This document shows positions 46,394-60,458 of a stretch of DNA of 64,000 nt, piece by piece (positions within the stretch are counted from its first letter, which is position 1; each line of letters opens with the position of its first letter). The notes beneath the pieces were generated by a model. It saw only the letters and a program-made list of their open reading frames with translations. It did not search any database and was not told the origin of the DNA. Made by a program: the position numbers and the translations under genes. The stretch covers positions 1 through 64,000 of the forward strand of contig CAMLLD010000005.1 in the NCBI GenBank assembly GCA_946480785.1. The letters run 5' to 3'. The stretch is from an uncultured Blastocatellia bacterium. Its GTDB lineage: Bacteria; Acidobacteriota; Blastocatellia; Pyrinomonadales; Pyrinomonadaceae.

Positions 46394-48487
46394 TTACTTC
46401 GCCGCTTGAATCGTTTGCTGCGCGATGTCGAGATACACGCGCAAGCGGACTTCCGGTAGTTGGAACCGGCCGGTCGTCGTCTTCGCGCGTTCGAAGTTCG
46501 AAATCGCGAGCGAGCCCAACGCACCCGACATCTGAATCACGAGGTTCGAGATGGTGTTGCCGTTTTGCAGGTTCAGCTCGTCGTCCTGGTAGAAGTCCAT
46601 GCCGAAGCCGTCGAGCGTGTGCGCCGCCGCGCAGATGTCGTTCAACTGGTCCACGAGCGGATCGAGGATCTCGAACGCGCGCTTCACGTCGTAACGGGAA
46701 AACGCCCGCGCCAGCTCGAGCAGTACGAGCATCTGTTCCTGGTCCTGCGCCTGCGCGCCCGGCGCCAGCAGCGTGCGCGCCTGTTCGAGAAAATTCAGCG
46801 CGTTCGTACGCTTTTGTCCTGGTCCAAGCTGCCGGATGATCTGCATCAACATGTTGGCGCGTTCGCGCGGCGTCTTCAACGCGGCGATGGCCCGCAGCGC
46901 CTCATCCACTTTGCCGCTCCCAACAGCGCGATACATTTCCTGTTGGTCCAGGTTGCGCAGCGCGTTGCGGCGCTCGTACGGGTTCTTCAGATTGTCGAGC
47001 ACCTGGCGCGCCCGTGCGATGTCGCCCTTGGCCGCGAGGCTGTTCGCGAGCTGATTGTAGAGTTGGTTCCTGATCTCCTCCGGCGCTTTTTGAATCGACT
47101 CCAGGGCGGCGTCAGCGTTGCCGTTGTCGACCTTCGTCTGTAGCGCCTGAAACGATTCCTGATAAGGGCTCGTAGCGTTTTGCAGTTCCGCGAACCTCTT
47201 TTCGACTGCGGCCGCGCCTCCTTCGACAACTCCGTCGAGATCCTGGCCCAACCCGCGAAGACTACTCAACATCTGCCACGCGGCGTCACGTTCCGGCGTG
47301 TAGTTGTTGTGCGGCGGCAATTGATAAGACATCGCTTCCTGGGCCGCCTTTTGCAACAAGTCGTGACACGTTTGGTCGGGCAGTAATGGATCGGCAGGCG
47401 CGGCGGCGTGATTTGCTCCCTGGTATCTCGCCGGTCTCGCGTTGCACATGCTGAGTAGACTGACGGTGACGGCCACGGCCTGGGGAGTGGTGAGCAGCTT
47501 CTCGTTGAGCACTTTGTTGGCGACCTCGGTGGCGAGATCGCTCGCGAGTTCGGGACTCTTTTGCCTCAGCATCGTGACGGTGTTGACGAGATCCGACGAG
47601 TAACCGCTCTTCAGATTTTGCCGCGCGATCTGAAACGCGCGCTTCGGATCCTTGGCGGCGATCTGGTTGGCGATCGCCAGCTCCATGCTGCGTTCCTGAT
47701 CCTCCTGCTCGCGTTCGTTGCCGTAAGGATTCATCGGCGTTTTGGTCGAATGCAGAAAACTCAGTGCCGCCTCGGGATCGTGCTCGGCCAGTACGCGAAT
47801 GATTTCCCACCGCAGTTGCGACATCGGGCCGTAATTTCTCTCGTAAGTGTCCGCGTTCGTATCAACGGTCGCCCAATACTCCTTCACGCCCGTCGCCGCG
47901 TCGTTCAGAAACTTCGCAGCGCGTTTCTCGTCTGTCGACCACAGCAGTTGGGCAAGCTGGAGTTGGGTTTGAAGGCGGGTCTGGGGCGAATGGATCTCGG
48001 GAATGAGTGCTTCGATGTCGCTGAGTAGATCGAGGCCCTTGGCTTTAACCGTTTCAAGGTTCTTGCTGGTGTTGAGCTCCTGGTCGGTGGCCTGGCGCAG
48101 CTCGACGATCCGGACCTCGATTTTGCCGCTTTCCATGTTTCCGTCCTGGCGGAGTGGCGTGACGAGGATGCGGTATGTACCGGCTGTCACCGCAACGAAT
48201 GAGACGTTTTCCGGGCCGTCGTCGCCGTTTGGTGAGTCAAACTCGCCGAGACTTTTTCCGGCCGGTGAAGCGACGCGCACCACGACGTCGATACCGTGTT
48301 GTTCGACGACGAGCTGAGCATACTGGTTCTCCTGGAGCGTGATGGTGAAAGCCTGTGAGTCGTTTGGTCCTAGCTGGCGTTCGATCGTTGTGCCCGGTTG
48401 GAGTGATTGTTCCTGGGCCTCGACCACGGCGGTTTGCAGGCAGCAGATAAGAAAGGACGCGGCAAGCAGAGCCCTGAGTTGGCGCAT
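46394..48487 (-). CDS. Secreted PPC-domain, alpha-helical repeat protein, function unknown
   Basis: The 697-residue protein has a signal peptide (LLAASFLICCLQTAVVEAQ), then a PPC-like beta domain (residues 30-130, NDSQAFTITLQENQYAQLVV, VAVTAGTYRILVTPL) and a long helical repeat region (residues 140-690) rich in paired helices such as LYNQLANSLAAKGDIARARQ. It may be a tetratrico-like scaffold. The first two domains are known from pre-peptidase segments and protein binding; no catalytic motif is seen. It shares its end with the convergent M49-like gene. Confidence 0.75.
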   Translation of the reverse strand: MRQLRALLAASFLICCLQTAVVEAQEQSLQPGTTIERQLGPNDSQAFTITLQENQYAQLVVEQHGIDVVVRVASPAGKSLGEFDSPNGDDGPENVSFVAVTAGTYRILVTPLRQDGNMESGKIEVRIVELRQATDQELNTSKNLETVKAKGLDLLSDIEALIPEIHSPQTRLQTQLQLAQLLWSTDEKRAAKFLNDAATGVKEYWATVDTNADTYERNYGPMSQLRWEIIRVLAEHDPEAALSFLHSTKTPMNPYGNEREQEDQERSMELAIANQIAAKDPKRAFQIARQNLKSGYSSDLVNTVTMLRQKSPELASDLATEVANKVLNEKLLTTPQAVAVTVSLLSMCNARPARYQGANHAAAPADPLLPDQTCHDLLQKAAQEAMSYQLPPHNNYTPERDAAWQMLSSLRGLGQDLDGVVEGGAAAVEKRFAELQNATSPYQESFQALQTKVDNGNADAALESIQKAPEEIRNQLYNQLANSLAAKGDIARARQVLDNLKNPYERRNALRNLDQQEMYRAVGSGKVDEALRAIAALKTPRERANMLMQIIRQLGPGQKRTNALNFLEQARTLLAPGAQAQDQEQMLVLLELARAFSRYDVKRAFEILDPLVDQLNDICAAAHTLDGFGMDFYQDDELNLQNGNTISNLVIQMSGALGSLAISNFERAKTTTGRFQLPEVRLRVYLDIAQQTIQAAK

Positions 48488-48569: not shown

Positions 48570-49667
48570 TTACTTCGCAAACGCGTTGCCGCCGAGGAAG
48601 TTTTCACGCAGGTAGGTAACGGTGTCGTGCAGGGTTTCGCCGGGATCGCGCGGCCGGAAGCCGAGCTCGCGTGACGCTTTGGCGCAGTTCAAGTACCAGA
48701 AATACTGCGCCATCTCGATCGCGCCCGGTTCGACGGGGGAACTCATGTCCCACTGTTTGAAGAGCGAGTCGAGCAACTGCGAGCCCGTGATCGCGAGCCG
48801 CGAAGGGAGAGCAAGCCATGGCGCGGAGACTTTGGTCAGCCGCTCCAACCGGCCGAAGAACTTCGCAAAGGTCCAGTTTGCCGCGCCCAGCAGGTAACGC
48901 TCGCCGTGCCGGCCCTTCTTCATCGCCGCACGAAACGTCTTCGCCGCGTCACGCGCATCGACAAAACTCACGCCGCCGGTCGGCACCGCGCTAATCTTTC
49001 GGGCCATGAAATCCAGCACGAGTTTCGTCGAGCTCAAACGATCGTCGCCCGGCCCGAGCAACAGGCTCGGATTCACGATCACGAGCCGCAGTCCCTTGCC
49101 GTTGAAACGTTCGAGCGCCGCCATCTCCTGGTAAGCCTTGCTCGCGTAGTACGGCCAGCGCGAGATGATCTCGAGCGGTTGCGGATAAGTCTCGTCAGGG
49201 ATGATGTCGCCGTCTTTAGTGACGGCGATCGTGCCGCTTGTTGACGCGAGGACAATCGTCTTCGTGCCGGCGGCTTTCGCGGCGTCGCAGAGCAGGCGCG
49301 TGCCTTCGACGTGAATGTCGTACATCTCGCGCGAGTCTTTGTGCTCGCGCGAGACTTTGCCGGCGAGATGGTAGATCTCGCTGATACCTTCGACCGCACG
49401 TTTGTTGTCTTCGGCGTTGGTGATCGAGCCCTCGAACGTCTCGACACCGAGATCGACGAGCCAATCGGGAATCGACGTTGCCATGACGCGAATGTCGCGC
49501 GCGCCTTCGTCGATGAGTTGGCGAACGAGATGCGAACCGAGAAAACCGGTGCCGCCGGTGACGAGTGTTGTGGCGCGCTGGCGTTTCTCAATCGCCGCGC
49601 GGCGCTTCGTGCCGGTCGTGGCCGTCGTCATGCGAGCGGTGCGTTTGCTTGAAGATTTCGTCGGCAT
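48570..49667 (-). CDS. NAD-dependent epimerase/dehydratase (SDR), last gene of the lipid cluster
   Basis: The 365-residue extended-SDR enzyme has the nucleotide-binding loop LVTGGTGFLGSHLVRQL and the catalytic YxxxK in WPYYASKAYQEM, preceded by VLASTSGTIAVT. It resembles the dihydroflavonol reductase/3-beta-HSD group and OleD. Its ATG overlaps the stop of the four-domain gene as TAATG, so it is translated with it. A role in reducing or modifying a lipid intermediate is inferred; it may be the ElbE equivalent. Confidence 0.85.
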   Translation of the reverse strand: MPTKSSSKRTARMTTATTGTKRRAAIEKRQRATTLVTGGTGFLGSHLVRQLIDEGARDIRVMATSIPDWLVDLGVETFEGSITNAEDNKRAVEGISEIYHLAGKVSREHKDSREMYDIHVEGTRLLCDAAKAAGTKTIVLASTSGTIAVTKDGDIIPDETYPQPLEIISRWPYYASKAYQEMAALERFNGKGLRLVIVNPSLLLGPGDDRLSSTKLVLDFMARKISAVPTGGVSFVDARDAAKTFRAAMKKGRHGERYLLGAANWTFAKFFGRLERLTKVSAPWLALPSRLAITGSQLLDSLFKQWDMSSPVEPGAIEMAQYFWYLNCAKASRELGFRPRDPGETLHDTVTYLRENFLGGNAFAK

Positions 49668-52600
49668 TAAACGGCGAGGCTCTCCTCAGGCTCTTCGATC
49701 AACTGCACCTTGCGCTCGCTGCGCCACTGCTTCCGTAACGCTTTCAGATCGAACGGCGTGCGCGTGCGATCGCGCAGGTTCACCACTTCATGCCGCACCT
49801 TCGCGGCGATCAAGCGGTACGCCTCGGCACGCGCGAGGCCGCGCGTCATCTCTTCCAGCTCTTCATGAGAAAGAAATTGACCGATGCGGGCGCCGACTTC
49901 GCGGTTCTTGATCAGCGTCGTGCCCTTCGGCATCGCTTCGTACGTGCCTTCGAGATACATCGGCAGGATCCCGACGCGCGCGTGCAGCGCGAGATAGCCG
50001 ACAACGGGTTTGAAATCCGCCATGACGCCCGTCATCGAACGCGTGCCTTCGGGAAAGATCAGCGCGTTGTAACCCTGATCGAGAAACGAGCGCGCGTGTC
50101 GCAGCGATTGTCGCAACGAACCGGTGCGCTCCATCGGCACGAGGTTCGTGAAGTTTTCCATCACGGCGCGTTTGTACTTCGTGTCGAAGAAGTAATCGGC
50201 CGCGGCGAGCGCCACCATGTCTTTGCCGTACTCGCCGAGGGCCATCTTCGTGAGCCCCATGTCGAGGTGCGAACAGTGGTTCGCCGCGACGATGAAGTTC
50301 GTGTGCGGCGGAATGTTGGAACGTCCTTCGTAATGCGTGCGCAGAAACTGGTCGTACAGGAAGCGCTGCAGGAAGTCGCCCGCTTTAGTTCCCGCCGTGC
50401 GCACGAACGCCGGAATGTGAATCTCGTCGTCTTTCTTCGGTTCGTCGGGACGAAGGTCGCGCTTGGTTGTAGCGCCGGCCCGGCGATTGACGACGCTCAG
50501 CAGCTCGCGCAGGTCCTGAATCTCGTTGAAACGTTCGGGCGCGGAGATCGAACCGCCCGCGTTTTCGATCGCGGTCGCCAGCTCAACGAACATCAGACTG
50601 TCGAAACCGAGATCGCTGAGGCGCGTCTCAATCCTGACTTCCGAACGCGGGCGGTTCGCAACCGTCGCCACGATGCCTATCAACCACAACGAATCCGCAT
50701 CCTGAGATTCCTGGGCCAGCGTTTGGCGTCCCGATTTCTGTTTCTCTTCGAGCGCTTCCATGATTTGCACGACTTCACGCCGTTTCACTTTGCGCGTTGC
50801 CGTGCGCGGCAGCTCGTCGTCCGTGAAATGCAAAACTTTGACGCGCTTGTAGTAGGGCAGGGAAGCCGACACCTCGCGGAAGTGCTCTTCGACGAGCCGG
50901 TGCAGTTCCGAGCGCGAGAGCGAAATGTCGTATTCATCATCAGCCACGACGAGGCACGCGACCTTCTCGCCGATGCCGTCCGCGAGTCCGACGATGCTCA
51001 GCTCCTTCACGTAAGGCGAATTGGCGTAGACTTCCTCGAGCTCGTCGGGATAGACGTTCTTGCCGTTCGTGTCGACGATGATCTCTTTCGAACGCCCGAC
51101 GAGATACAGATTGCCGTCGTCGTCGACGCGCCCGAGATCGCCCGTGTAGAGCCAGCGATCAACGAGCGTCGCGCGCGTCGCCGCTTCATTCTCGTAGTAA
51201 CCGAGCATCACGTTTGGCCCACGCGCGATCACTTCACCGACGCCGCTCGCGTCCGGTTCCGCAATGCGTACTTCAACGCCCGGTAAAGGCTTGCCTACCG
51301 TTCCCGTCAACATGCGATTCTCCGGCCGCGTGACAGTCAACACCGGCGACGCTTCAGTCAAACCGTAACCTTCGAGAATCGTGAAACCGAGGCCGTGGAA
51401 GTCGCGCTGGATCTTCTCGCTCAGCGCCGAGCCGCCGCTGATGAAATAACGAATGCGCCCGCCGAGCCCTTCGTGAATCGGATAGAACAGCACCTGGCCG
51501 AGGTTCACCGACGTCTTGTCGCGCAGCCACGCGTTCGCCCAGATCAGATTGTCGGCGGTCTTGCCGATCCAGTCGCTCTGTTCGTAGAGACGGTTCTTGA
51601 TGCGGCGGTGCAGCAGTTCCCACAACGCGGGCACGCCGACCATGCCGGTGACGTGGCCGTTTTTGATCCCGCGCGCGAGTGCGTCGCTCGTGAGCTCGGG
51701 CAGGTATGTGATCTGCGCGCCGCGACTCAGCGGCGTCAGGAATCCGGTCGAGAATTCAAACGTGTGATGTAGCGGTAAGACCGACAACACGCCGTCGCTG
51801 ATCGACATGTCGAACACCGACGACAGCATCGACACCATGCTCGTCAGGTTGCGATGCGAGAGCATCACGCCTTTCGGCTGGCCCGTCGTGCCGGAAGTGA
51901 AGATCAACGAAGCGACACTCTGCGCGTGAACGCGTTGCGGCAAGAGCGCGATGCGTTCGTCTTCAGTCTGCTCGTCCGGCAGCTCGAAGACTTCGTCGTA
52001 AGTCCAGAGACGTGTGAGTCCCTGCTGTTCGAGTTGTTCGCGCAGGTCGGGATGATCTTCGAGCACTTTATCACTCGTGATGATCCCCGCCGCGTTTCCG
52101 GCGCGCGCGAAGTTGAGAATCTCGCTCGTAGAACTCTCCGGATCGCACGGAATACAAGTCGCGCCGGTCTTCAACACGCCGAAGTAAGTCATGCCCCACT
52201 CGGGCGCGTTCGCACTGACGAGCATCACGCGGTCGCCCTGCTTGATCCCGTGGCTCGCGAGAAATCCGGCAACACGTGTCGCCAGCTCGCGCAGATCGGC
52301 GTACGTGTACTGCTCTTTGCGGCCGTCGCGCTCGATGCGCATCGCGACGCGGGTCGCGTGGCGCTTCGTCGAAGTCTCAAACAACTCGAGCAGATCGCGA
52401 TACGTGTAAACACGTTTCGGCTGCGCGCGCATCTCGTCTTCGAGCGTCGGGAACACCCACTTCGTCAGTCCCGGCAGATGAACGTTGAGCCAGTAGTCGT
52501 ACCAGTCAAACTTTTCCGGGTTCCACGTGAGCAGCGAGCGCTCGTCTTCGCTGATGCGATTAAACAGCGTGCGCACATTCTCCGAACGAAACACGTATGC

Positions 52601-54070
52601 ATTCTCGACCGTGAACGGGCGAAACATATCGAAGGCTTCGGTCGTCTCGCGCGTCAGCTCCTCGACGCGTTCGACCTTGTCTTTCACCATGTCGATCACT
52701 TCACCGACGCGCCCGCCGCCCCAGCGCGGCCGCACGCGATCCAATAGCGACGACGCCTTCTTCGCGGTCGCATTGAACATCGGCACCGACGTGTTCTCGA
52801 ACTTCGACACCGTCACCACACGCGGCTCCATGCGTGCGCCGATACGGTTCAGAATCTTAACGCCGCTGTCTTTCTCTTCTTCGTAGTAACGGCGCTTGTC
52901 GAGACCGCAGAGACCGACGATGCGTTCCATGTTGTTGGCGTTCGAATCGCCCGTCGCTGCCTGATAAACGAGCCGCGGTTCTTCGACGCACGCCTGCGCC
53001 GAGACGGCGAGCATCACGGACGCGACCTGGTCCACGGGCGTGATGTCGAGGATCAGTTTCGGATCGGCGGGAATCTGCGTCTGGCCTTTGCGAATCAGGA
53101 AGATGATGGGCGCCGTGGTCGTGAAGCCTTCGTTCCAACCCGGGAACGGATATGACAAAGCAGATTCGACGATGCTAGGGCGAACAATCGCGCGCACCAT
53201 GTCTTTTTCAGCGGCGACGAGCTGCTCGCCGAGCGACTTCGTGTAGGTGTAGATGTTGGGCCAACCCCAGTATGCCGCGCGTTCGACGCCGAGATCCGTC
53301 AGACGCGTGCGCGTCCAGACTTTTCTTTCGCGTGCGACCGCGAGTCCGAGCGCGTCGGGATCATCGATGTCACGTCCTTCTTCGTTGAGACGTTTGCGCG
53401 CGAGTTCGCGAAACTTCGCCGCCATCATCGCGTCGCGCGCTTCGTCGCGCACGCGATCCGCGAGCTTCGCACAATCGGCGATCTCGTTGTCGACGGAAAA
53501 CTGAACGCCCGGCATTTCTTTGCGCCGCGGAAAGTAACCAAGCACGTCGTCGCTTTCCCAAACCGCGCCCGAACGATTGCCCGCGACGAAGCAAGTCGAA
53601 ACGTGGACCAGCGCCGGACGTTTCATTCGCCTCGCGAACGCGATCACGTTTTGCGTGCCGACCACGTTCGTGCGCAGACCGCTTTCGAGCGTGGGATTGA
53701 AAGTGACGTTGCCGGCGGAGTTGATGATGATGTCGATGTCGTCGGCGATCGACTGGGCCTCTTCTTCGCTGTAACCGAAGTTGGTGTCGGCGATGTCGCC
53801 GCCGCGGATGACGACCTTGTCCTTGATGAAACCTTCGAGCGCCGCGCCGTAACGCTCGCGCAGCGGATCGAACGGCGGCGCGGTGATGATGTTGTTCCAG
53901 AAGCGCGTCTCCGACTCTTCCTGCGAGCGCGCGCGCACGGTGAGATAGACCTTGCCGACGTTCGGAAAGCGATGCAGCAACATGCTCAGCGTGACTTTGC
54001 CGAGAAAGCCCGTGCTGCCGATCAGGAAGATCTTCCGGTCTCTATAAATCTCTGTCGGAGACAACTTCAT
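49667..54070 (-). CDS. elbD: Four-domain reductase / AMP-ligase / ACP / acyltransferase, ElbD-like
   Basis: The ~1467-residue protein has four modules. Residues 1 to about 380 are a fatty-acyl reductase-type SDR (IFLIGSTGFLGKVTL, catalytic WPNIYTYTKSLGE). About 530-1080 is an acyl-AMP ligase (SLIFTSGTTGQPKGVMLS, YTGDLGRVDDDGNLYLVGRS). About 1110-1190 is an acyl-carrier domain with pantetheine serine in LGFDSLMFVEL. About 1230-1450 is a PlsC acyltransferase (NHCSHLDMG, FPEGTRSMTG). This order matches the multifunctional ElbD that makes ether lipids in Myxococcus. ATG 54070 follows GGAG and the upstream stop by 4 bases; ATG 54091 is an alternative. Confidence 0.9.
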   Translation of the reverse strand: MKLSPTEIYRDRKIFLIGSTGFLGKVTLSMLLHRFPNVGKVYLTVRARSQEESETRFWNNIITAPPFDPLRERYGAALEGFIKDKVVIRGGDIADTNFGYSEEEAQSIADDIDIIINSAGNVTFNPTLESGLRTNVVGTQNVIAFARRMKRPALVHVSTCFVAGNRSGAVWESDDVLGYFPRRKEMPGVQFSVDNEIADCAKLADRVRDEARDAMMAAKFRELARKRLNEEGRDIDDPDALGLAVARERKVWTRTRLTDLGVERAAYWGWPNIYTYTKSLGEQLVAAEKDMVRAIVRPSIVESALSYPFPGWNEGFTTTAPIIFLIRKGQTQIPADPKLILDITPVDQVASVMLAVSAQACVEEPRLVYQAATGDSNANNMERIVGLCGLDKRRYYEEEKDSGVKILNRIGARMEPRVVTVSKFENTSVPMFNATAKKASSLLDRVRPRWGGGRVGEVIDMVKDKVERVEELTRETTEAFDMFRPFTVENAYVFRSENVRTLFNRISEDERSLLTWNPEKFDWYDYWLNVHLPGLTKWVFPTLEDEMRAQPKRVYTYRDLLELFETSTKRHATRVAMRIERDGRKEQYTYADLRELATRVAGFLASHGIKQGDRVMLVSANAPEWGMTYFGVLKTGATCIPCDPESSTSEILNFARAGNAAGIITSDKVLEDHPDLREQLEQQGLTRLWTYDEVFELPDEQTEDERIALLPQRVHAQSVASLIFTSGTTGQPKGVMLSHRNLTSMVSMLSSVFDMSISDGVLSVLPLHHTFEFSTGFLTPLSRGAQITYLPELTSDALARGIKNGHVTGMVGVPALWELLHRRIKNRLYEQSDWIGKTADNLIWANAWLRDKTSVNLGQVLFYPIHEGLGGRIRYFISGGSALSEKIQRDFHGLGFTILEGYGLTEASPVLTVTRPENRMLTGTVGKPLPGVEVRIAEPDASGVGEVIARGPNVMLGYYENEAATRATLVDRWLYTGDLGRVDDDGNLYLVGRSKEIIVDTNGKNVYPDELEEVYANSPYVKELSIVGLADGIGEKVACLVVADDEYDISLSRSELHRLVEEHFREVSASLPYYKRVKVLHFTDDELPRTATRKVKRREVVQIMEALEEKQKSGRQTLAQESQDADSLWLIGIVATVANRPRSEVRIETRLSDLGFDSLMFVELATAIENAGGSISAPERFNEIQDLRELLSVVNRRAGATTKRDLRPDEPKKDDEIHIPAFVRTAGTKAGDFLQRFLYDQFLRTHYEGRSNIPPHTNFIVAANHCSHLDMGLTKMALGEYGKDMVALAAADYFFDTKYKRAVMENFTNLVPMERTGSLRQSLRHARSFLDQGYNALIFPEGTRSMTGVMADFKPVVGYLALHARVGILPMYLEGTYEAMPKGTTLIKNREVGARIGQFLSHEELEEMTRGLARAEAYRLIAAKVRHEVVNLRDRTRTPFDLKALRKQWRSERKVQLIEEPEESLAV

Positions 54071-54074
54071 ATCT

Positions 54075-55673
54075 CTACTCCATGTCCGCAATGCCGATCA
54101 TCGGCTGGTGCAGCATCGTGATCTCCGCGGAGTTGCCCATGTAACTGCGGGCCATCGCGATCGCTTCCGTCAGATTATCCGCTCGTTCCCAACCGAGAAT
54201 GCCCGGCACGTGCGCGTTCTCCGCGCCGGCGGCGATCACATGGCCGACGTGTTGCCGCCCGTTCTCGCCCCAGTACCACATGAAGAACGGGTGCGCGCCG
54301 TGATAGGCGTTGCCGCGCCGGTACATCTCGACGTAACTCGGATTGTTTGCAAACTCGCGCTCGTACTTCTCGCGCAACGTAAACGCATCGCGCGTCTCCG
54401 GCAGCAGCCGGTGGAAAAACTCGATGTAGCTCGGATGAAAGTCGTGATCAAATTCGTCGTAGCACGGATGGTGCAAAATCAGCACGCCGCCTTTCTTCAG
54501 CAGCGGCTTGTTGCGATAGAAATTGAAGTGATAACCGAGCGCCATCACCTGGACCAGCAGCGGGTTCAGGATCGAGTAGACATTGTACGGCGAGATGTCG
54601 GGGATGCCGGTGATCAGAATGTCCGCCTGGCCGCGAATCGGAATCGCGTACTGCTCGAAACCTTTCGCCACGATCTTGGCGTGCACTGGCTCCGTCTTGC
54701 CCGCGTGACACGCAATCATTTCATACTGCGACGGGCGCGAGTGCAACAGCTTGCGGCGCGCCGCCCGCGGCAGCTTGCTCATCGTGTAGCGCATGGCTTC
54801 GAACTTCATGCGATCGAACGCGCTGAAGTCGTCTTCGTTACGCAGCAAAAAATCCATGTCCGCGCCGTACATGCGGTTGTTGATGGCCGTCTCGATGTGA
54901 AAAACGTTTAGCTCTTTATCGACGATCTTGCCGAGTTGGACCACCTTGTGATTCAACGCCGAACGCGCGGGGTCCATGTAACTGTCCGAATCGCGAATCG
55001 TCTGCGGATCGTGGTGCATGCGCAGCGACTCGTAGTCACACAAGCCCACCGCGACCGACTTGTGACCGCCGTCCATCGGCACGAAGTTGAGATTGACGTA
55101 GATGAGCAAATCGCTTTCGGCTGCGCGGCGATTGAGCACGAGCGGTTCCTTGTGTCTCGTCTCGCCGATCTTGACGAGCCCGTCGGTCCACTCGGCGTCG
55201 TGGTTGTAATAACGATCGGGGTAGTAGTCGGCGAAGATGCGCGGCCCGACCATGCGCTTCATTTCCCACTCGGTCATCTTCCGGTGCAGGGAATTGGCGA
55301 TGATGATGTGGACGTCGTCGACGCCGTGACCCGCGAGCATGTCGAGCACGACTTCGAGAATCGTTTGCCGGATGTCGGGCGTGGCCATCGGCGGCAACGG
55401 CAGACTGATGTCGTCAACCGCCACCGTGACTTTCATGCCCGGCTCGAGTTGCGCGAACAGCGGATCGCAATCGTGCGGATGATTAAGCGCGTAACGAATC
55501 GCGGCTTCGCGGTTCGGCAGTCCCTTGATCGACGGGTTCGGATAGAGCACGCGCGTGCCGATCGGGAGATCTTCGAGGATGAAGTCTTCGCCGGACGGCA
55601 TGATGCGCGGCGCGCTGTCGCGGTCGATGTAGATGACGGATTCGTGCGTCTTACGTCGGAGTTGCAGTGCCAT
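54075..55673 (-). CDS. DUF2088 (LarA-like) protein in the lipid cluster
   Basis: The ~532-residue protein carries the DUF2088 fold known from LarA lactate racemase. Seen are [15 protein letters not shown], the equivalent of the LarA histidine segment, and the C-terminal [20 protein letters not shown] with [15 protein letters not shown]. LarA uses a nickel-pincer cofactor; whether this protein does is unknown. In elb clusters a DUF2088 gene accompanies the ElbD gene. ATG 55673 overlaps the upstream stop as TAATG; the preceding 60 codons of the frame are discounted. Confidence 0.8.
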
Positions 55674-56347
55674 TATTTGAGATCCAGTATGGGCCAGTCG
55701 TGATGTAACGCGGTCTGCCGCAAACGCATGTCGGGATTGATGACAGCCGGATGCCCGACGATCGACAGCATCGGCAGATCGCTCATGCTGTCGGTGTAAG
55801 CATACGAATCGCTGAGGCTGATGTCTTCGCGTTCGCTGTACGTCCTGATCCACGCGGCCTTCGTAGCTGCGGCCATCACCGGCGGCAAGAGACGGCCCGT
55901 CGCCATGCCGTTCACAAACTCGAGCCGGTTCGTGACGAATTCCGTGATGCCGAGATGCTGCATCAGCGGCTTTACTGACAGATCGAGCGCGCCAGTTATC
56001 ACCACTTGACGCAGCCCGAGCCGGCGCGACTTGTCGATCAGTTCGTAAGCGCCGGGAAACACCGCGGGCTTGATGACGTCCTCGAAAAGCTCGTGCGCGA
56101 AGTAGCGCAGGCGGTCTTCGGACTGTCCTTTGTAGCGCTTGAAGTAGAGGTCGTTAAAGACTTTTCGGCTATACTGGTCCGTCACGGCAAACAAGGGCAG
56201 ACTGAGATAGGTCGCCGCGCTCTTTTTGAAGCTGGCCACCAGCCCTGGCTGACGGCCCGCATAAAATGCGAGCGTGTGCACCAGGTTGGTGCTCACCAGA
56301 GTTCCTTCCAGATCGTAAAATGCTGCCCCAGCCAAGCTCTCCTCCAA
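55673..56347 (-). CDS. HAD-IB family phosphatase-like protein, first gene of the lipid cluster
   Basis: The 224-residue protein has the SerB/HAD-IB layout: motif [12 protein letters not shown], motif [13 protein letters not shown], a lysine in motif III ([10 protein letters not shown]) and acidic motif [16 protein letters not shown]. In motif I the second aspartate of DxDxT is glutamate (DLEGT). It may remove a phosphate from a lipid precursor. It heads the transcript continuing through the DUF2088, ElbD-like and SDR genes, and may be the ElbB equivalent. The first ATG of the frame is accepted. Confidence 0.85.
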
Positions 56348-56447
56348 GTGGACCGCGCCACTATACCGTATTCAGGTGGCTTTCCAGAACGGGAAAGCAA
56401 AAGTATTACAAACTGTATAAAGAGACTAGACAATCGGAGATCGTTTG

Positions 56448-57260
56448 ATGGGAAAAGCCAATAAAAACGGGCAGAAATTGAGATTCATGATGGGTATGTC
56501 GGTGGGTTTGGGGATGGTTTTTGTCGCTATTTCGTGTCATCCGGCGGCCACGCCGAATCAATTGACGACCGGGAGCAGTGACGCGAAGGCGGCGGCCGAC
56601 CGGATTGCCGAAGCCGACACGCTTTATAACGGCCGCGACGACCTGAACAAGGCGCGGGTCGCGGTCGCGGCGCTGCGGCAGGCGCGGACGGCGGATTACG
56701 GTAACTATGACGCGGCCTGGAAACTCGCGCGGGCGGCTTTTTATGTGGGCGACCACACGGATAACAACTCCGAACGGGACGACATGTTTCGCGAAGGGAT
56801 CGAGGCGGGGAAAGTCGCGGTTACGTTGCAGCCGAACAAAGCCGACGGGCACTTTTGGCTGGGCGCGAATTATGGTGGGAGTGCGGCGCACAGCACGCTC
56901 GCGGGTCTTTCGAGTTTTCGCGACATCAAGAATGAGATGGATGCGGTGTTGAAGATTGACGAGAGTTATGAGGGCTACAGCACGTATCTCGGGCTGGGGC
57001 GGCTATACCTTGAGGCGCCGACGGTGTTGGGCGGTGATAGCAAACAGGCGATTGCGTACCTGGAGAAGGGGTTGAAGTTGAATCCCAATCACACGATGAT
57101 GCGCGCGGAGTTGGCCCAAGCCTTTATCGCCACGAATCGCAAGGCCGAAGCGAAGAAAGAGATCGAAACCATCCTATCCGCCACCCCCGACCCCAAATAC
57201 GCCCCCGAGCACAAAGACGCCCTCGCGAAAGCGCAGAAGCTCCAACAGAAGTTGGGGTGA
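56448..57260 (+). CDS. TPR-repeat lipoprotein (TatT-like)
   Basis: The 270-residue protein has a signal with lipobox VAISCH (lipidated cysteine near residue 30), followed by helices of tetratricopeptide type (DMFREGIEAGKVAVTLQPNK, IAYLEKGLKLNPNHTMMRAE). It resembles the TRAP-associated TatT family, which binds solutes in the periplasm. ATG 56448 is used in preference to the TTG three bases earlier. Repeats follow its stop. Confidence 0.75.
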   Translation: MGKANKNGQKLRFMMGMSVGLGMVFVAISCHPAATPNQLTTGSSDAKAAADRIAEADTLYNGRDDLNKARVAVAALRQARTADYGNYDAAWKLARAAFYVGDHTDNNSERDDMFREGIEAGKVAVTLQPNKADGHFWLGANYGGSAAHSTLAGLSSFRDIKNEMDAVLKIDESYEGYSTYLGLGRLYLEAPTVLGGDSKQAIAYLEKGLKLNPNHTMMRAELAQAFIATNRKAEAKKEIETILSATPDPKYAPEHKDALAKAQKLQQKLG

Positions 57261-57269
57261 GTATTGGAT

Positions 57270-57347
57270 CTCGGTAAGTGCCGAAGCTCGGGTAAGTATT
57301 GTGCTCGGTAAGTACCGAAGCTCGGTTAAGTGTTGAAGCTCGGGTTG
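57270..57347. repeat. Short tandem repeat, about 17-bp unit, 4.5 copies
   Basis: Units start at 57270, 57287, 57304, 57321 and 57339, each opening CTCGG and mostly running CTCGGTAAGTNCCGAAG. Periodicity is 17-18 bases with substitutions. There are no spacers, so it is not a CRISPR. Confidence 0.85.
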
Positions 57348-57351
57348 TACT

Positions 57352-57544
57352 AACGCCGAAGGCGTTTGCCAGTGCCAGCCCAGGGTTGCTTCAACCCTGG
57401 GTCATAACAAAGGCGAGGTCGAACTCTGAAGGAGTTCGCGAGTTGCCGCGCCGTAGTCAACGCCTTCAGCGTTGTTATTCGTGTATTACGTGTCCCCAGG
57501 GTTGAAGCAACCCTGGGCTGGAACTGGCAAACGCCTCCGGCGTT
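57352..57544. repeat. Long inverted-repeat element, copy 1
   Basis: The ~193-base element has 50-base terminal arms: left 57352-57401 starts AACGCCGAAGGCGTTTGCC, right 57495-57544 is its near-perfect inverse (only a few mismatches). Inner palindromes include GAACTCTGAAGGAGTTC and CAACGCCTTCAGCGTTG. No coding sequence. Its right edge forms the stop codon of the UPF0182 gene. Confidence 0.85.
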
Positions 57545-60458
57545 ACGGTTTACTTAGCTTGCGGATCTCTTCGAGGGTGCGGCGGTGTTGCTCGAGTTTC
57601 TGGCCGGCCTCGCCGAGTTTGCCTTGTGCAGTGAGGCGCTGGTAGTCGTCAAACTCCAGGATCGCTCGGTCGATCAGTTGTTGTAAGTTTTGTGCGGGTG
57701 TTCCACTCGGCGATGAACCAGGCTGCATTGATTGCGAGGAACTTGGTTGGCCTGATGATGGACCGGCCTGAGCGGAGGAACTAACTTGGCCTGAAGACGA
57801 CGAGCTCGTCTGGCCGGGCGCGGCCTGTGTTGCCGCTTCGCCGAAGAGGTTCGTCATCGCCTCACTGAAGTTCTGCCCGTACGCCAGCTTCTCGTGCGTC
57901 GCCAAAACCACGATCCGCAACTCCGGCATCGGACTGTGTTCCGCCTGTAGATAAATCGGTTCCACAAACAGCACCGAGCGCCCGATCGGTATCACCAGCA
58001 AATGCCCGCGAATCACGCGCGAGCCCTGCGTGTTCCACAACGTAAACTGCGCCGAGAGCTGCGGGTTCTGATCGATGCGCGCTTCGATCTGCAATGGCCC
58101 ATCGATCAAATGCGACTTCGGGAAGTTATAAGCCAGCAACCGCCCGTAGTTCTCACCGTCGCTGCGCCCCGCCATCCACCCGATCAAATTGTTTCGGTTC
58201 GACGGCGTGAACGGCAGGATCATCACAAACTCATTCTTCTGCGGCTCGCCCGGCAACTGCATCAGCACGTAATACGGATCGATCGGCGTGCTCTGCTTCT
58301 TTCCCTGCTCGTCAAGCGTGAGCCGTTGTGCGATGCTCCACACGTCTTCGCGCTGGAAAAACGTCCGCGGATTCTGCGTGTGATAAAGGTTGTAAACCTC
58401 ACCCTGCGCGCGCAAAAGCGTTTCCGGATAACGAACGTGCGCGCGCAAGTCGGCGGGCATCTCGCTCGCATCGCGAAACATGCCCGGGAAGATCCGCTGA
58501 TACGCGGCGATCAGCGGGTCCTGTTTGTCGAACACGTAAAACGTCGCATTGCCGTTGTAAGCATCGATCACGACCTTGACGCTGTTGCGAATGTAGTTGA
58601 CCGAGTTACGCCCGACGCCGTGATGGCTCGAGTAAGGGAAGTAAGCCGACTCGGTAAAGCCGTCGATGATCCAAAACAACCGGCCTTCGTTATTGACGAG
58701 GATGTACGAGTCGGGATCGTAAGTTAAAAACGGCGCGAGGCCGTCGACCATCTTGTTGATGTTGCGATTGAAGAGCACGCGGCTCTCGCTCGTCACGTCG
58801 TTATTAAAAGGCAGCTTCGAGAGATCGCCGAGGCTCCACGCGAGCATCATGCGCCGCAAACGATTTCCGATTTGGATTCCGCCAGTGCCTTCATAAGTGG
58901 TGAAAGTGTTTGATTCGCCCTGCGGATAATCAAACTCTTTCTGATTCGTGCGCACGTAAACGTAGTCGTTCGTCAACTCGCCGAAATAGATTTCGGGACG
59001 CGTGACCTTAATATCGGGCGCGGTGGAATTCACCGGCATGTTCGACAAGACAAACTGCGGCAGACCTTCGGGCGTGAAACCGTTCGCGCTGTTCATCGTC
59101 ACGCCGTAACCGTGCGTGTAGAGCAATCGCTCGTTGATCCAGTTGCGTGATTGATCGGGCAGCTTGTCGTTGTTGATCTCGCGCGGCGCGATCATCATCT
59201 GCCGCGTTTGGCCGGCGACGGTGTAGCGATCGACGTCGACGTCGGGGAAGTCGTAATAAGTGCGAATCGCCTGGATCTGCCGCAGCGTGTCTTGCAGCGC
59301 CTGCCAATCCCAGAGGCGAATGTTATCGATGGTCTCGCGATTGTTCGGCAGGTCGAGGGCGTTAACGGACGTCGCCGCGTCGAAGTCGCGTAGTTCGATC
59401 TGTTCGACGCCGAAGCCGCGGCGCGTCCATTCGATGTTGTGCGTGATGTACGGCGTTTCGCGATCGAGCTCGTTTGGTTTGACGATGAAGCCCTGAATGT
59501 ACGCGGGAACCAGCACGACGCCCACGATGTACACGGCGACTGGCAATCCGATCGCGATGAGCAGCAGGCTAAACCGCCGTACCGTAAACGCATTTATTAA
59601 AGAGACGAGCGCGCCGATGATCAGCGCCACGCACACGAAGAGCAGCGCCGGCAGCGTGTAGTTTGCTTCGGTGTAAGTGACGCCGGAAAACGTCGGATGG
59701 TCCTGCCAGAGGAAAGGGAAGCGCGAGAGATAAGTGCGCCAGCTCAGCACGAGCAACACGAGCGCAAGCGCGCAACAGACGGCGCGAAACGCCGCGCCCG
59801 ACGACCAGCGCACGCTTGCTTTCAAAACCGTCTGCGGCAGACCGAGTAATGAATAAGCAACCGCCGCAACGAGGATGACGATGGCGATGCCAAACAACCA
59901 CGAGCTCAGCAGATCGTAAAGCGGCAGCGAGAACAGATAGAAACCGAGCGGCTTGCCGAAGATTGGATCGTAAGTCGACGTCTGCGGCTGGTTGAGATAG
60001 AGCGCGAACTGCCGCCAACTGTCTTTCAATTGAAACCCGTAAATCAATCCGAAGAAGCCGGACACAAGCCAACCGAGCGGGCGAATAAATCGCGCGGGCG
60101 AAAATTGAAACGGCTGGTTATTGAGAACGATCGTGCGGTTTTCGAAAGCGTACGCGCCGAAGAGTCGTTGAAAGAGCAGAAACGTCGCGCTCAATAGTAG
60201 GGCAGTCAACACCGCCGAGCCGACGAAGAGCAGCGCCTTGGCTTTAAAGATGTACCAGTAGACCGAGGAGTAGCCGAGTGACCCAAACCAGAGCGCCGAA
60301 AGATAGATCGAGAGGACGCGCGAGAACGAAATGAGCAGCAGTATCGCCGCCACGATGAGCCACACCTTGAAGCGGCGTCGCCCACGGCCTACGTCAATAA
60401 TGGTCGGGTTGCGCGAGTTGGCACTCACTGCCCGTAGCATACTCGCAAAGAACGCCAC
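57543..60458 (-). CDS. UPF0182 family integral membrane protein
   Basis: The 971-residue protein matches UPF0182/COG1615: seven or so N-terminal membrane segments (residues 30-330, starting VWLIVAAILLLISFSRVLSI), then a large extracytoplasmic domain with typical motifs (YITHNIEWTRRGFGVEQIEL, IYFGELTNDYVYVRTNQKEF, MRLFPGMF-like stretch). A Ser/Gln-rich linker (about residues 885-930) is followed by a helical end (AQNLQQLIDRAILEFDDYQR). The biological role is unknown. It is flanked on both sides by copies of the inverted-repeat element. Confidence 0.9.
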   Translation of the reverse strand: MAFFASMLRAVSANSRNPTIIDVGRGRRRFKVWLIVAAILLLISFSRVLSIYLSALWFGSLGYSSVYWYIFKAKALLFVGSAVLTALLLSATFLLFQRLFGAYAFENRTIVLNNQPFQFSPARFIRPLGWLVSGFFGLIYGFQLKDSWRQFALYLNQPQTSTYDPIFGKPLGFYLFSLPLYDLLSSWLFGIAIVILVAAVAYSLLGLPQTVLKASVRWSSGAAFRAVCCALALVLLVLSWRTYLSRFPFLWQDHPTFSGVTYTEANYTLPALLFVCVALIIGALVSLINAFTVRRFSLLLIAIGLPVAVYIVGVVLVPAYIQGFIVKPNELDRETPYITHNIEWTRRGFGVEQIELRDFDAATSVNALDLPNNRETIDNIRLWDWQALQDTLRQIQAIRTYYDFPDVDVDRYTVAGQTRQMMIAPREINNDKLPDQSRNWINERLLYTHGYGVTMNSANGFTPEGLPQFVLSNMPVNSTAPDIKVTRPEIYFGELTNDYVYVRTNQKEFDYPQGESNTFTTYEGTGGIQIGNRLRRMMLAWSLGDLSKLPFNNDVTSESRVLFNRNINKMVDGLAPFLTYDPDSYILVNNEGRLFWIIDGFTESAYFPYSSHHGVGRNSVNYIRNSVKVVIDAYNGNATFYVFDKQDPLIAAYQRIFPGMFRDASEMPADLRAHVRYPETLLRAQGEVYNLYHTQNPRTFFQREDVWSIAQRLTLDEQGKKQSTPIDPYYVLMQLPGEPQKNEFVMILPFTPSNRNNLIGWMAGRSDGENYGRLLAYNFPKSHLIDGPLQIEARIDQNPQLSAQFTLWNTQGSRVIRGHLLVIPIGRSVLFVEPIYLQAEHSPMPELRIVVLATHEKLAYGQNFSEAMTNLFGEAATQAAPGQTSSSSSGQVSSSAQAGPSSGQPSSSQSMQPGSSPSGTPAQNLQQLIDRAILEFDDYQRLTAQGKLGEAGQKLEQHRRTLEEIRKLSKP

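Follow-up and report, generated by a model that had tools for sequence, protein, structure and literature searches.

The closest described system is the elb operon of Myxococcus xanthus, which comprises elbA (encoding a short-chain dehydrogenase/reductase, SDR), elbB (HAD), elbC (unknown function), elbD and elbE (a second SDR) (PMC9131029). ElbD carries FAR1-like, ACS, acyl carrier protein (ACP) and AGPAT-like domains in that order; the ligase and ACP activities have been shown in vitro, but the reductase and acyltransferase activities have not, according to the review. Disruption of elbD strongly lowers ether lipids, and iso-15 aldehyde, present in the wild type, is absent from elbD mutants. 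Inactivation of elbE also leads to fewer ether lipids, the effects of elbB may be polar, and insertions in elbA leave the ether lipid unaffected (PMC9131029). Homologues of the entire operon occur in several genomes of subdivision 4 acidobacteria (PMC10087280, citing Sinninghe Damste 2018), and the obligate aerobe Pyrinomonas methylaliphatogenes K22 is reported to have an ether-rich membrane, with >40% iso-branched glycerol ethers and membrane-spanning iso-diabolic acids (PMC4644332). Here, we describe a related four-gene cluster on the minus strand of a 64,000-nt stretch (the window; contig CAMLLD010000005.1 of assembly GCA_946480785.1), whose source is a soil acidobacterium, Pyrinomonadaceae-like and of subdivision 4.

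We consider this cluster to be probably an elb-type alkyl-ether-lipid operon in which the protein at the elbC position is a single-histidine, nickel-pincer nucleotide (NPN)-dependent member of the LarA superfamily, acting by hydride transfer on a pathway intermediate, and no free lactate racemase. This reading builds on the gene anatomy, conservation, fold, retained cofactor residues, loss of the second histidine and operon linkage computed here. The synthesis of alkyl-ether and membrane-spanning lipids in aerobic bacteria is an open question, and the climate proxies based on branched glycerol dialkyl glycerol tetraethers depend on such lipids.

A LarA homologue in an elb-like gene order

The gene at the elbC position (54075..55673, minus strand, as for all genes under study) encodes a DUF2088 protein, which the preliminary description of this DNA had regarded as undescribed. 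DUF2088 is, however, the N-terminal domain of LarA (Lar_N, PF09861, 123.4 bits), and the protein falls into a named subfamily, LarAH14/15/16 (NF052592, 803.7 bits against a curated cut-off of 740), with a LarA fold that spans its whole length. It retains one catalytic histidine (His130, 55284..55286), the NPN-linking lysine (Lys205, 55059..55061, aligned to Lys195 of Streptococcus plurextorum LarA) and the nickel ligand (His221, 55011..55013, aligned to His211 of the same protein), all three of which are invariant in the 80 loci described below and in the 11 rows of a divergent alignment reaching down to 33% identity. The second catalytic histidine of the two-histidine lactate racemases (His174 of LarA) is absent: the residue aligned to that histidine of Mar2 is Asn196 (55086..55088), a position that is N in 80/80 loci and, across the divergent alignment, varies between N, S, I and V. 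Because of this replacement, we do not class the protein as a lactate racemase proper. Its single-histidine nickel-pincer identity would give the gene at the elbC position a testable chemistry.

The four open frames occupy positions 48570-56335 and follow one another closely. The HAD gene (55673..56335), at the elbB position, and the LarA-like gene share a one-base overlap (TAATG), as do the gene for the four-domain enzyme (49667..54070) and the SDR gene (48570..49667), while four bases separate the LarA-like stop from the four-domain ATG. Reading of the frames and junctions thus bears out the tight, same-strand arrangement first described, with one correction: the outer boundary had been placed at 56347, the first in-frame TTG of the HAD frame, but the best start is the TTG at 56335, 12 bases further in, which has GGAGGAG ahead of it.

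The four-domain enzyme, a single protein of 1467 residues, combines an acyl reductase domain (PF07993, 53012..54022, E 4.7e-54) with a Sterile domain (PF03015, 52451..52684, 38.6 bits against a cut-off of 35.4), an AMP-binding ligase domain with its C-terminal domain (PF00501, 51194..52381, E 1.1e-79), an acyl carrier domain (PF00550, 50498..50686, E 2.6e-9) and a PlsC-type acyltransferase domain (PF01553, 49952..50338, E 1.4e-18), in that order. The motifs GSTGFLG, YTYTK, TSGTTGQPKG, GFDSL (in the carrier domain), NHCSHLD and PEGTR are all intact. Pfam and motifs therefore uphold the earlier claim that acyl reductase, acyl-AMP ligase, ACP and PlsC are joined in one protein, and the order agrees, as had been proposed, with that published for M. 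xanthus ElbD (PMC9131029).

The HAD protein resembles HAD-IB family phosphatases (PF12710 and TIGR01490, both above cut-off). Its motif I reads DLEGT, with a glutamate in place of the second aspartate, the residue that HAD phosphatases usually have as the second acidic residue of this motif. Of the 72 HAD matches from the 80 loci, 70 share the glutamate (the other two do not span the position), and the HAD proteins of five loci with other layouts have DxD. The last gene encodes an extended SDR (PF01370, E 2.5e-30) whose nearest solved chain is 3wj7, a putative oxidoreductase (E 5.7e-33). A hopanoid or sugar epimerase was considered and rejected: HpnA is the best NCBIfam match but scores 212.2 bits against a cut-off of 367.65. 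Nor does the SDR stand as undescribed, as had been thought, since it occupies the position of elbE, and M. xanthus with a disrupted elbE has fewer ether lipids (PMC9131029).

Ahead of the HAD gene, open frames and Pfam reveal no elbA-type SDR, the next gene being one for a TPR protein on the opposite strand. This protein and a UPF0182 protein (both within 56445-60458) stay near the cluster in 36/80 and 15/80 loci, respectively. On the other side, a 697-residue protein without a Pfam match is encoded on the same strand at 46394-48487, starting 82 bases past the SDR stop; a relative occurs in only 4/80 loci, and we therefore leave it out of the operon, to which it probably does not belong. A PADLOC search for defense genes with the four operon proteins gave no match, and neither did a search of PHROGs phage families with the LarA-like protein. 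Among plasmids, this protein had only partial matches of 27.7-30.0% identity in three records, two of them annotated larA.

Linkage across Acidobacteriota

The gene order to which the preliminary description had pointed recurs in relatives. Genome contigs scanned with an alignment of 14 DUF2088 sequences yielded 430 confirmed stretches, the best 80 of which were analyzed; all are acidobacterial by title except one titled merely "bacterium." In 72/80 loci, a HAD gene is found upstream of the LarA-like gene and in the same orientation; in the remaining eight, the upstream flank is shorter than 5 kb. ElbD follows downstream, again on that strand, in 68/80, and 11 of the remaining 12 have <5 kb of downstream flank. 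The twelfth (L020) lacks ElbD downstream, and pieces of ElbD are found on a different contig of its genome (G015). An SDR follows ElbD in only 39 loci (in 31, ElbD is missing or the flank is too short) and is the loosest part of the cluster. The linkage of the LarA-like gene with HAD and ElbD exceeds chance. Among the matches listed, the closest DUF2088 protein (99% identical) is from a Pyrinomonadaceae bacterium, and proteins ~68-77% identical, seen without gene context, come from metagenome-assembled genomes (MAGs) of Myxococcales, Polyangia, Deltaproteobacteria and Gemmatimonadaceae. M. xanthus is named in none of the best 120 matches listed per protein search, which do include Myxococcales and Polyangia MAG proteins; by gene position, M. 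xanthus elbC would be the same protein. A divergent LarAH14-type match in genome G087 (contig C204:10857-12221) falls into two pieces (177 and 143 bits) within one 466-residue frame.

The LarA-like protein is found in three layouts. In a sample of 149 Acidobacteriota genomes, 13 carry a LarAH14-type protein (LarAH) above cut-off, while that of G029 is more distant (500.6 bits); at most three ElbD candidates were scored per genome, so that some copies may have been missed. Ten of the 13 have the first layout, with an ElbD 55-80% identical to that of the window. In the other three (G104, G135 and G166), a LarAH of 59-61% identity adjoins a lone acyl reductase (PF07993, plus PF03015 below threshold). 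A HAD gene stands alongside in G104 and G135 (the G166 contig begins there), an SDR in G104 and G166, a diacylglycerol kinase is nearby in all three, and PlsY lies ahead of the HAD gene in G104. The third layout was found within the class of G104 (38 genomes, nine with a LarAH14-type match at E 1e-100): in G168 and G170 it comprises diacylglycerol kinase, ElbD (distant, 31-32% identical by blastp), HAD, zinc alcohol dehydrogenase and LarAH (35% and 44%). Also in this layout, ElbD is next to LarAH (43%) in G179, and the alcohol dehydrogenase adjoins LarAH on 5-kb contigs in G169 and G171; ElbD is on a different contig in G171, and no full-length ElbD was found in the G169 genome.

The common core of the three layouts is an acyl reductase plus LarAH, mostly with HAD and either an SDR or a zinc dehydrogenase; not every cluster includes the ligase, ACP and acyltransferase domains. 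The three layouts thus tie the LarA-like protein to genes for a reduced fatty chain and for glycerolipids. Two further loci are recorded here as observations: in G029, a LarAH 33% identical to that of the window adjoins a 461-residue short-chain dehydrogenase, off that genome's ElbD contig (L102:377-3336), and in G151, the ElbD match has an in-frame TAG by genome search, yet the locus L107 (265-4629) holds a 1455-residue frame.

Genes for making NPN accompany the LarA-like protein in relatives of the window genome, where LarB exceeds the cut-off in 30 of 31 carriers, LarC in 30 of 31 (21/21 and 9/10, followed by 5/5 further genomes, or 35/36 overall) and LarE in 29 of 31. In five carriers (G013, G014, G029, G104 and G135), the DUF2088 protein is the sole Lar_N protein, and these have LarC in 5/5, LarB in 5/5 and LarE in 4/5. 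On the basis of these genes and of the conserved residues, the LarA-like protein likely uses NPN.

Proposed pathway and alternative explanations

The substrate and the order of steps are those we infer from the domains and layouts above. The ElbD-like enzyme would load a fatty acid onto its own ACP, an activity known from M. xanthus ElbD (PMC9131029), its reductase domain would take the loaded chain to the aldehyde level, and its PlsC domain would acylate a glycerol lipid. HAD would strip a phosphate, while the SDR, or the zinc dehydrogenase of other layouts, would reduce a carbonyl or act on a lipid alcohol, and the LarA-like protein would shift a hydride within the lipid intermediate. The diacylglycerol kinase of the other layouts suggests that this intermediate may be a dephospho form.

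A bolder version, which we offer as speculation and think quite unlikely to be right, has the elbC protein make or set up the ether bond itself by an internal hydride relay. The fatty aldehyde from the reductase domain would add to a glycerol hydroxyl to give a hemiacetal, the nickel-pincer cofactor would move a hydride from the neighboring glycerol carbinol carbon (C2) to the hemiacetal carbon, and the resulting alkyl-glycerone would be reduced by the SDR or zinc alcohol dehydrogenase. Such a relay would employ every conserved part of the cluster and, if true, would mean that alkyl ethers can be made aerobically and without a flavin; it would also give single-histidine LarA homologues their first role. 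As a general ether step, it is opposed by the genomes that have ElbD and no LarAH14-type match, hence our low rating.

Several observations weigh against the operon reading itself. Those genomes (G044, G066, G111, G151 and partly G143) carry a distant ElbD but gave no match of the LarAH14 type at E 1e-100, and the stretches fetched around ElbD of G029, G044, G066, G111 and G151 contain no LarAH; the LarA-like protein is therefore not obligatory with ElbD. The ether-lipid reading in the preliminary description is supported in part: the domain and gene order stands, and these ElbD genomes speak against it. Ten of the 80 loci have at least 3 kb past ElbD yet no SDR. LarE is missing from G104, and LarB, LarC and LarE are all missing from the data for G136. 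The presence of LarC is weak evidence because, in the 149-genome sample, LarC (E up to 0.001) occurs in 69/75 genomes with Lar_N and also in 43/74 without; the 13/14 carriers with LarC differ from the latter at Fisher p ~0.015, for genomes that are related and thus non-independent. Frankia LarAH14 was assayed for seven activities and none was found (PMC7583248), and for the organism of the window both the lipid product and the enzyme activity are predictions from sequence-level evidence.

A separate alkylglycerone-phosphate synthase (AGPS) elsewhere in the genome could form the ether bond from a fatty alcohol made by ElbD, with a co-regulated LarA-like protein whose substrate is a head group or hydroxyacid. 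The genomes that have ElbD but no LarAH14-type match would fit this account, as would the sugar metabolism to which the single-histidine LarA proteins of Streptococcus and Blautia have been tied (PMC12611868) and the minor effect of the AGPS-like MXAN_1676 on M. xanthus ether lipids (PMC9131029). Against it, three layouts link LarAH with genes for an acyl reductase and for glycerolipids, and no sugar or hydroxyacid gene adjoins LarAH in the operons scanned. We find this account unlikely. Pfam detects no AGPS among the four operon genes, a genome-wide AGPS search not having been made.

The LarA-like protein might instead be a catalytically dead, NPN-free scaffold or lipid-binding protein. Loss of the second catalytic histidine and the G136 data point in this direction, and the Blautia single-histidine LarA was colorless and cofactor-free after co-expression (PMC12611868). 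The S. plurextorum protein, by contrast, was purified with NPN (PMC12611868), and the cofactor residues invariant down to 33% identity, together with the lar genes in the sole-Lar_N carriers, make a dead protein decidedly improbable. We give the smallest chance to the idea that the cluster yields another reduced-fatty-acid product (a fatty alcohol, wax ester, or storage or signal lipid) and no membrane ethers. Pontiella has ElbD homologues, yet ethers were not detected in it, and for acidobacterial ethers the part played by elb has been called not conclusively demonstrated (PMC11868695); opposing this are the elbD phenotype of M. xanthus (PMC9131029) and the ether-rich, obligately aerobic K22, which carries the cluster (PMC4644332). 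DUF2229, which we take to mark the anaerobic ester-to-ether reductase (Ger/PlsA) route, likewise argues against another product, as it is present in one of the 31 carriers and absent from the window operon. That carrier, G104 (contig C4:179585-180274), may hold two ether routes.

Comparison with known systems

Among LarA proteins, those of S. plurextorum and Blautia wexlerae (9q3k and 9q3j) share the single histidine and are 24% and 21% identical to the window protein by structural alignment. The Asn loop is one residue shorter in the window protein, whose gene context is lipid rather than the sugar metabolism read for the other two. Frankia LarAH14 (PMC7583248) is likened to it by family name only, being named in the same NCBIfam family; this orphan group, with its one assayed member inactive on seven reactions, would gain a candidate pathway. 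Our search retrieved no paper linking LarA to elb, with subscription papers and supplements, including the LarAH gene-neighbor tables of PMC7583248, outside its coverage.

The AGPS and Ger/PlsA routes lead to the same product class as elb, and neither is present in the window operon by Pfam. The elb operons of subdivision 4 come from the same bacterial group and are reported as whole (PMC10087280), and the cluster therefore belongs to an already known kind. They also support the link between subdivision 4 and ether lipids drawn in the preliminary description, as does the K22 locus (L018), where HAD, LarA-like protein, ElbD and SDR follow in the same order with 76%, 83%, 71% and 65% identity to the window; cluster and ether-rich membrane in one organism are an association and no proof. 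The need for ElbD in M. xanthus ether lipid formation, also stated there, matches the review. With the M. xanthus operon, matched through its published order and domains and not by sequence, the window shares the succession of HAD, one gene, the FAR-ACS-ACP-acyltransferase enzyme and SDR. It lacks an elbA ahead of the HAD gene, which we do not treat as defining because elbA insertions leave the M. xanthus ether lipid unchanged, and where the review gives elbC as of unknown function (PMC9131029), the window encodes a LarA homologue.

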